Shown here: positions 13,027 through 56,240 of the stretch, piece after piece | Layout: every line of letters begins with the position of its first letter | How positions within the stretch are numbered: the stretch's first letter is position 1 | Notes under the pieces: model-generated | The model's database searches: none | What the model saw: only the letters and a program-made list of their open reading frames with translations | What the model was told of the DNA's origin: nothing | Assembly: GCF_000302535.1 (NCBI RefSeq) | Contig: NC_018708.1 | Span: forward strand, 3,720,001 to 3,784,000 | Reading direction: 5' to 3' | Length of the DNA: 64,000 nucleotides | From: Acidovorax sp. KKS102 | GTDB taxonomy: Bacteria; Pseudomonadota; Gammaproteobacteria; Burkholderiales; Burkholderiaceae_C | Position numbers and translations under genes: made by a program

Positions 13027-13092
13027 AAAAATCAAACAAAAACAGCTTCAAGCGCTAGTGCAATATGCGCTGGCAGCTATCAAATAAGGAGC
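13027..13092 (-). repeat. Interspersed repeat copy A
   Basis: Read on the minus strand, this matches the family core TTGATAGCTGCC-x-GCGCAT-N3-GCACTAGCGCTT, followed by an AT-rich tail. It is the longest of five related copies in the window (others at 39806, 48931, 51241 and 56195). It fills the space between dusC and the hypothetical gene at 13224. Confidence 0.7.
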
Positions 13093-13223
13093 AAATGTAT
13101 GGACCGGTGGCGCCCAACGCAGCGCCGGTCAGCCCGTGATTGTGATGCAGGACACCCAAGGGGTCATCACGGCGTCACGCCCGGCTGGTGCAATGCCCGC
13201 CTCAGACTGCCACGGAGCCACCC

Positions 13224-39805: not shown

Positions 39806-39862
39806 AAATAGACCGGACGCGCTGGTGAATCATGCGCCCGTAGCTATCATTTTTATATCAAG
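39806..39862 (-). repeat. Interspersed repeat copy E
   Basis: Read on the minus strand: AAATGATAGCTAC, then GGGCGCATGATTCACCAGCGC. The core (GATAGCT, GCGCAT, CACYAGCGC) and spacing match copy A at 13027. It occupies the gap between the acyl-CoA dehydrogenase and nitronate monooxygenase genes. Confidence 0.6.
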
Positions 39863-48930: not shown

Positions 48931-48974
48931 CAAGCGCTCTTTCATATTGCCTCAGAAGCTATCAAATAAATAGC
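48931..48974 (-). repeat. Interspersed repeat copy B
   Basis: Read on the minus strand: GCTATTTATTTGATAGC, then a diverged centre and GAGCGCTTG. The first palindrome is the best preserved of all copies. It sits between the DUF58 and transglutaminase genes. Confidence 0.6.
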
Positions 48975-49012
48975 AAAATGAAATCTATCGCCCTCCACCC
49001 CGCCGCGCAGCC

Positions 49013-51211: not shown

Positions 51212-52324
51212 ATGAAGAAGACAGCACCATGGACCGCAGCAGCTATTTTTTTGATAGCTGCCTGGGCATTACCCGCTAGCGCAAAGCCCGAAAATCAACC
51301 CAAATCAGCAGCCCAGAAGGCGCATGCCAAAGCCGGCCAGGCCCACCAGGGGCGGGCCAGTGCCAAGGCCACGGTGCTCTATGCATCGCGCCCTGAGGCC
51401 ATGGAGTTTGCCGACGACCTGGCCACGCGCCGCGACCTGGACCGTGAATGGGTGCGCCAGGCCATTGGGCAGGCGCATTTCCTGCCCCAGGTGCCCAAGC
51501 TCATGCTGCCGCCCGCCAAGGGCACGGCCAAGAACTGGCGCGTGTACCGCAGCCGTTTCATCGACCCCATACGCATCCGTGCAGGCGTGCGCTTCTGGCA
51601 GGAGAACCAGGCCACGCTGGAGCGTGCCGAGCGCGAGTTTGGCGTGCCGGCCGAGATCATCGTGGGCATCATCGGGGTGGAGACGATCTACGGCCAGCAG
51701 ATGGGCACCTTCCGCGTGATGGACGCACTGGCCACGCTGGCGTTCGACTTCCCCTCGGCCCACCCGCGCGCCAAGGAGCGCACCGAGTTCTTCCGCCGCG
51801 AGCTGGAGCAGTTCCTGAGCCTCACCAACCGCAGCAACACCGACCCCTTCGAGCCGCGCGGCAGCTACGCGGGCGCCATGGGTCTGGGCCAGTTCATGCC
51901 CTCCAGCTGGGTGCGCTACGCGGTGGACTTTGATGGCGACGGCCGCGTAGACCTGTTCAAGAGCCCGGCCGATGCCATCGGCTCGGTGGCCAACTACTTC
52001 CGCGGCCACGGCTGGACGCCCGGCATGCCCACGCACTTTGGGGTGCAGTTCGACAACGCGCGCCTGCAGCTGGACGACCTGCTCGCCCCCGACATCCTGC
52101 CCACCTTCAGTGCCGCCGGCATGTTGGCCAAGGGCGCCGTACTCGATGCCCAGGGTGCGCAGCACACGGGCCCGCTCGCTCTGGTGGAACTGCAAAACGG
52201 CAACGATGCACCCAGCTACGTGGCGGGCACCGAGAACTTCTACGCCATCACGCGCTACAACTGGTCCAGCTACTACGCCATGGCGGTGATCGAGCTGGGC
52301 CGCGAGGTGGCGGCAGCGCGCTGA
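51212..52324 (+). CDS. mltB: Lytic murein transglycosylase B
   Basis: A 370-residue peptidoglycan-cleaving enzyme. The signal peptide (MKKTAPWTAAAIFLIAAWALPASA) ends at a signal peptidase I-type site, with no lipobox. The catalytic glutamate is in IIGVETIYGQQMG, and AMGLGQFMPSSWVRYAVD is the SLT-type signature. It forms 1,6-anhydromuramyl products in the periplasm. The DNA coding for the signal peptide's hydrophobic core and cleavage region (51241-51298) is itself a copy of the interspersed repeat found at four other places in the window. The ATG at 51212 begins the signal peptide. Confidence 0.9.
   Translation: MKKTAPWTAAAIFLIAAWALPASAKPENQPKSAAQKAHAKAGQAHQGRASAKATVLYASRPEAMEFADDLATRRDLDREWVRQAIGQAHFLPQVPKLMLPPAKGTAKNWRVYRSRFIDPIRIRAGVRFWQENQATLERAEREFGVPAEIIVGIIGVETIYGQQMGTFRVMDALATLAFDFPSAHPRAKERTEFFRRELEQFLSLTNRSNTDPFEPRGSYAGAMGLGQFMPSSWVRYAVDFDGDGRVDLFKSPADAIGSVANYFRGHGWTPGMPTHFGVQFDNARLQLDDLLAPDILPTFSAAGMLAKGAVLDAQGAQHTGPLALVELQNGNDAPSYVAGTENFYAITRYNWSSYYAMAVIELGREVAAAR
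51241..51298 (+). repeat. Interspersed repeat copy C, inside mltB
   Basis: GCTATTTTTTTGATAGCTGCC, TGGGCATT and CGCTAGCGC follow in the order and spacing of copy A (13027-13092, minus strand). Here the repeat is read as codons for AAIFLIAAWALPASAKPENQ in the mltB signal peptide. Confidence 0.65.
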
Positions 52325-56155: not shown

Positions 56156-56194
56156 AGCGGGCCGCTTCCCAAGCGATGGCGCATGACGGCCATC

Positions 56195-56240
56195 GCTATT
56201 TTTTCAATAGCAATCAAGGCATGATGCACTAGCGCTTCAT
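56195..56240 (+). repeat. Interspersed repeat copy D
   Basis: GCTATTTTTTCAATAGC followed by GGCATGATGCACTAGCGCTT. The first palindrome carries a compensated change relative to copy B, and the second core (GCACTAGCGCTT) is identical to copy A. It lies between the Hsp20 and MacB-like permease genes. Confidence 0.65.

Follow-up and report, generated by a model that had tools for sequence, protein, structure and literature searches.

An interspersed repeat of Comamonadaceae forms the core of the predicted MltB signal peptide in Acidovorax sp. KKS102

Introduction

Repeats that lie inside bacterial genes are usually viewed as recent, mildly harmful insertions. In a 64,000-nt stretch of the Acidovorax sp. 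KKS102 genome (positions 3720001-3784000 of the single 5.197-Mb contig; hereafter, the window), the lytic transglycosylase gene mltB, whose closest named relative is found in A. delafieldii DSM 64, carries a copy of a short interspersed repeat near its start. An initial annotation read this copy as a mobile element that had been domesticated into an export signal. Does the repeat indeed encode the signal peptide (SP) of MltB, how long has it been there, and what keeps it recognizable as a repeat?

A repeat copy at the start of mltB

The 45-nt core of the repeat overlaps mltB codons 10-24 and encodes both the hydrophobic core and the region of cleavage in the predicted MltB SP, which reads MKKTAPWTAAAIFLIAAWALPASA and is followed by KPENQ in the translation (Table 1). 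The start codon is backed by relatives, with an in-frame stop shortly upstream of RTIDMKK. Read from the sequence, the N-terminus displays the hallmarks of a Sec SP, i.e. a positive n-region, a hydrophobic core and small residues at -3/-1 (MKK, then AIFLIAAWALPASA, with K after the cleavage position), and the palindrome together with the second core of the repeat is translated as AAIFLIAAWALPASAKPENQ, just as the initial annotation had it. Judged from this predicted SP, MltB would be exported by means of a repeat-encoded peptide. At codon 18 (window 51263-51265), mltB has TGG (Trp) here and TGC or TGT (Cys, a possible IAAC lipobox) in relatives; a single base could decide between a lipoprotein and a soluble form.

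Folding of positions 51238-51300, which include the first palindrome, gave -19.7 kcal/mol (z -2.96), with 0 of 200 shuffled sequences being as stable. The mltB hairpin is thus stable, but three other copies of the repeat were not unusually so, which gives no support to an RNA structure common to the family.

Table 1 Features at the mltB locus and related repeat copies (window positions in the first eight rows, genome positions below).
Feature	Position	Strand	Remarks
mltB, lytic transglycosylase	51212..52324	+	ATG at 51212; Pfam PF13406 SLT_2, E 9.4e-93, residues 61-363
Repeat core AGCTATTTTTTTGATAGCTGCCTGGGCATTACCCGCTAGCGCAAA, in-frame reading AIFLIAAWALPASA(K)	51241..51285	+	R1 46.9 bits, E 7.6e-12; matrix 47.5 bits
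First palindrome, arms GCAGCTAT/ATAGCTGC (51239-51246/51254-51261), 7-nt loop	51239..51261	+	predicted mRNA hairpin
Predicted SP MKKTAPWTAAAIFLIAAWALPASA, predicted cleavage between ASA and K	51212..51283	+	translation; SP-like N-terminus at same region of orthologues
Other repeat copy, intergenic	13049..13093	-	68.5 bits
Other repeat copy, intergenic	39816..39860	-	copy at orthologous place in 7/7 relatives examined
Other repeat copy, intergenic	48931..48975	-	copies at orthologous place in 7/7 relatives examined
Other repeat copy, intergenic	56194..56238	+	copies at orthologous place in G027, G026, G012
Y1 transposase gene (L361)	960310-960597		PF01797; sole one; best adjoining repeat-like site 6.9 bits, just behind
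LolA	1459837		in-frame repeat copy as predicted SP
Plastocyanin-like protein	1543381		Pfam matches below cut-off alone; label from its sequence
Polysaccharide deacetylase	1854507		in-frame repeat copy as predicted SP
Copper-binding (cupredoxin/plastocyanin-like) protein	3285665		in-frame repeat copy as predicted SP
DsbD-like reductase	4676422		in-frame repeat copy as predicted SP

An abundant family with a preferred open frame

A first DNA search of the genome returned 40 matches to the repeat. With a profile (R1) built from 24 aligned copies, from which all SP cases including mltB had been left out, at least 150 matches were listed, mltB being among them at 46.9 bits; E-values of R1 searches are rough. 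The mltB stretch is thus a member of the family. With a weight matrix derived from the same 24 copies, 90 sites scored more than 10 bits within 0.86 Mb, 55 of which are intergenic, and none above 8 bits in reversed sequence. With another matrix, made from 48 intergenic copies, 195 sites exceeded 12 bits within 1.66 Mb of the genome (reversed control, 0). This corresponds to ~117 copies per Mb and, by extrapolation, to ~600 per genome, an approximate figure as the sampled stretches were picked partly to include known SP copies. The own-genome consensus is ATAGCTGCcAGCGCATgTTccACTAGCGCTaGcGGCC. The 45-nt core is open in the SP frame in 138 cases, versus 52 and 18 in the other two frames, and this is usually the sole open sense frame of the repeat (..ATA GCT GCn nnn GCA ...CT AGC GCn).

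Beyond this genome, R1 at E 1e-12 found no match in 59 other genomes across the order, one of them from the same family. Of another 37 Comamonadaceae genomes, seven contained weaker matches, with at most 21 per genome at E 1e-9; R1 is tuned to the variant of this genome, and a null result in relatives is no proof of absence. The repeat was detected only in Comamonadaceae. Eleven loci with copies matched no Rfam family above the gathering score. In the open-access literature, to which the search was confined, sequence words of the repeat returned unrelated work alone, and an earlier description may exist elsewhere.

The match exceeds the protein constraint

Hydrophobic SPs could merely resemble a translated repeat, by chance or convergence, and the L054, L075 and L086 orthologues of mltB do carry a similar SP in unrelated codons, the very finding that the initial annotation had named as the mark of a chance match. 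However, on the matrix from intergenic copies the mltB stretch scores 47.5 bits, and 0 of 20,000 synonymous recodings drawn with genome codon usage reached this value (mean -20.8, maximum 24.8). With uniform codons, the maximum for the same peptide was 44.2 bits. The five other SP copies of the genome (see below) each score above all of 3,000 synonymous recodings, and four gene families share the same rare codons. A chance match arising from amino-acid constraint is refuted by this recoding for mltB, and likewise for the five other SP copies, leaving chance or convergence with a negligible probability. To this extent the initial annotation is supported: the repeat encodes both h-region and cleavage region in the predicted MltB SP.

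Recurrence in secreted proteins and other in-gene copies

A search for other SPs containing the repeat translation, as the initial annotation had proposed, uncovered at least five more proteins, in each of which an in-frame copy at the gene start coincides with an SP-like N-terminus, matches the repeat at the DNA level and is read in the same frame as in mltB (Table 1). The proteins were compared with Pfam, where all but the one at 1543381 had matches that were not confined to the range below cut-off. By manual reading, six SPs are found among the ~24 sense copies in coding sequence, placed on the basis of our own simple gene calling (P ~1e-5, with the amount of SP-coding DNA set generously on purpose). 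Among plastocyanin-like homologues, three (L359 in G016, L360 in G015 and L348 in G011) have one stop codon inside the matched stretch.

In-frame copies also lie inside housekeeping proteins (4601242, 4416038, 1691889, 1751103 and 1493040), among them the CCA-adding enzyme, GlmU, MiaA and what we take, by recognition, to be ComEC and a UvrD-like helicase. Relative to solved structures, the net insertions at the copies amount to 7 aa in GlmU, 2-4 aa in the CCA-adding enzyme and ~4 aa in MiaA, all smaller than a whole copy.

The mltB copy is old

Of 80 named mltB orthologues from Comamonadaceae, 55 carry the repeat pattern at the same position and in an unchanged frame, if a score of 10 bits with a matrix that pools relatives, a cut-off of our choosing, is required. 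On the intergenic matrix, most orthologues score far above their synonymous versions, again in the same frame. On a tree of the 80 orthologues, the distribution of the pattern requires a minimum of 14 changes, versus a mean of 21.5 and a minimum of 16 in 300 shuffles. Several copies around mltB, too, occupy orthologous places in the same orientation in other Acidovorax genomes (seven relatives examined; Table 1). The mltB copy is old.

L075 and L086, both from Polaromonas, encode a similar peptide in GC-rich codons and are tree neighbours of L087, which keeps the repeat. Since they are nested among repeat-bearing relatives and recoding rejects chance, we read them as cases of later loss, the DNA pattern having probably disappeared there. 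L054 (Paracidovorax) likewise has a similar SP in unrelated codons. The repeat is not needed for export, as a number of mltB orthologues manage without it.

These data bear on the original proposal that a mobile repeat was domesticated in mltB, which we take here to mean a recent insertion. In its favour, copies are plentiful and may be read in frame within coding sequence, and the small net insertions in GlmU, the CCA-adding enzyme and MiaA would also suit such an event. Yet most of the Comamonadaceae share the position and reading frame of the copy, the net insertions fall short of a full copy, and the suggested comparison of mltB 5′ ends, while it did reveal relatives with and without the repeat, turned up no orthologue with an empty site and a matching N-terminus around it. 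We thus consider recent insertion very improbable; of the insertion scenario, only an old event at the base of the family is still possible.

Signal-peptide copies follow the repeat at the DNA level

At the marker position of the SP copies, Ile is invariably encoded by ATA (49/49 in mltB, 29/29 in lolA, 29/29 in dsbD and 21/21 in the plastocyanin-like gene), in counts that cover above-threshold copies alone, which favours ATA somewhat, and species that share ancestry. ATA makes up 7% of the Ile codons in the long genes of this genome and 0 of 21 Ile codons in the h-regions of 44 repeat-free SP-like genes. Exceptions to ATA at this position are mostly GTA, with TAGC preserved.

In addition, repeat variants differ between clades. 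The consensus in G012/G016/G025/G029 is ATAGCTGCTAGCGCTTtaTcgATAAGCGCTAGAGGCC. In the clade of KKS102 itself (G000, G027, G005, G033), all four genes have CT AGC, like the intergenic copies of that clade, and in most other clades the SP copies have A AGC. G010, G022, G031 and G034 carry GGC, i.e. a Ser-to-Gly change, in mltB, dsbD and mostly also the plastocyanin-like gene, with lolA keeping AGC; G028 has GGC in dsbD alone. Most G010 copies show GG at the columns matching this change, with G at the respective column in 8 of 14 copies within 100 kb of G010 (mltB at 471607 counted in), a small sample, as are those of the other clades outside KKS102. SP copies thus tend to follow the repeat variant of their clade. 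The correspondence is partial: GGC also occurs in dsbD of G002, G004 and G046 and in the plastocyanin-like gene of G015 and G016, and mltB retains GCA where intergenic copies show GCT. The notion of domestication, at least as first stated, does not capture this behaviour, as the nucleotides go along with the other copies of the repeat and do not drift freely among codons for the required residues.

How might one sequence serve both ends? In its open sense frame, the 45-60-nt interspersed repeat encodes hydrophobic residues and then small ones. A Sec SP requires just this, so that a copy lying in frame where a gene begins can supply h-region and cleavage region, and can probably be used with little change. 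Protein constraint would then keep the SP copy hydrophobic and free of stops, and a separate DNA-level process would keep it repeat-like and tracking the variant of its lineage. We regard as likely, from orthologues that are not independent of each other, an old and recurrent use of the repeat as h-region and cleavage region, combined with such a second process, presumably either selection for a recognized site or homogenization between copies.

If selection were at work, the copies, including that in mltB, would be recognition sites of a DNA- or RNA-binding factor, and the SP a passenger that tolerates them. Copies at orthologous positions across several species, the retention of ATA/GTA such that TAGC stays intact, and variants that affect the whole family per clade are consistent with this. 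Against it, the factor is putative, copy orientation showed no clear bias with respect to replication side, and many orthologues do without the site; we deem this account possible, if somewhat doubtful. Homogenization, in which copies rewrite each other by conversion or REP-like mobilization and SP copies stay repeat-like without site selection, appears rather unlikely. It would explain the concerted change of copies at fixed positions, and there is one Y1 transposase gene in the genome, but no good copy lies within 1.5 kb of this gene, and conversion would also transfer the many variable positions at which copies are seen to differ. Returning to old, recurrent use under a DNA-level process, we tentatively propose, at nearly even confidence, that the SP DNA of MltB, LolA, the DsbD-like and the plastocyanin-like protein might double as a site of the repeat system, with concerted repeat evolution steering SP residues, including the parallel Ser-to-Gly change in one clade.

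Relation to known repeats

In-frame repeats that form part of predicted SPs have been described by Delihas (PMC2759123; PMC2229807), e.g. the palindromic YPAL/RU-2 repeat of Yersinia in YPO1552 (Delihas 2007, PMC2759123; PMC2229807). The phenomenon, which the initial annotation had called rarely described, is hence rarely described but not new. YPAL/RU-2 is MITE-like and 168 bp long, and the putative protein that contains it is confined to Y. pestis and Y. pseudotuberculosis, whereas the Acidovorax repeat spans 45-60 nt, resides in conserved, named periplasmic proteins across much of a family, and is conserved at the DNA level. The present case thus differs from the precedent in the repeat family, the number of conserved envelope proteins and the DNA-level conservation. 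Rickettsia palindromic elements (RPE) are likewise found between genes and also as in-frame parts of genes for conserved proteins (PMC2229807), but are insertions of 105-146 bp with no tie to SPs, while the internal Acidovorax copies show small net insertions alone. As with RPE and YPAL, an open frame of the Acidovorax repeat is translated within host proteins.

Hundreds of short palindromic copies, mostly intergenic and some intragenic, are also typical of REP/RAYT elements (PMC2817692, PMC3733652); REP elements, too, occur inside genes (PMC3733652). The Acidovorax repeat shares the high copy number and mostly intergenic location (195 in 1.66 Mb; 55 of 90), but no RAYT flanked by copies was found, the only Y1 gene lacking good neighbouring copies, and no GTAG/CGTC end tag was apparent when the consensus sequences were read by eye.

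Several conserved envelope proteins appear to have long drawn their export signals from one repeat family, which meanwhile kept its DNA identity. This offers a natural test of how protein signals evolve under nucleotide constraint, and the clade variants provide a handle on what recognizes or rewrites the repeat.

Inverted copies ~800 bp apart (1409149/1409969 and 1764430/1765214) were inspected for a RAYT gene between them; no transposase ORF was recognized, and the intervening DNA resembles a different, larger repeat. The two ~800-bp stretches, 1409149-1410013 (L171) and 1764430-1765258 (L189), are each flanked by inverted copies of the short repeat, have AAAGTAACTTTCTT-type motifs in common and apparently represent a second, larger interspersed repeat.
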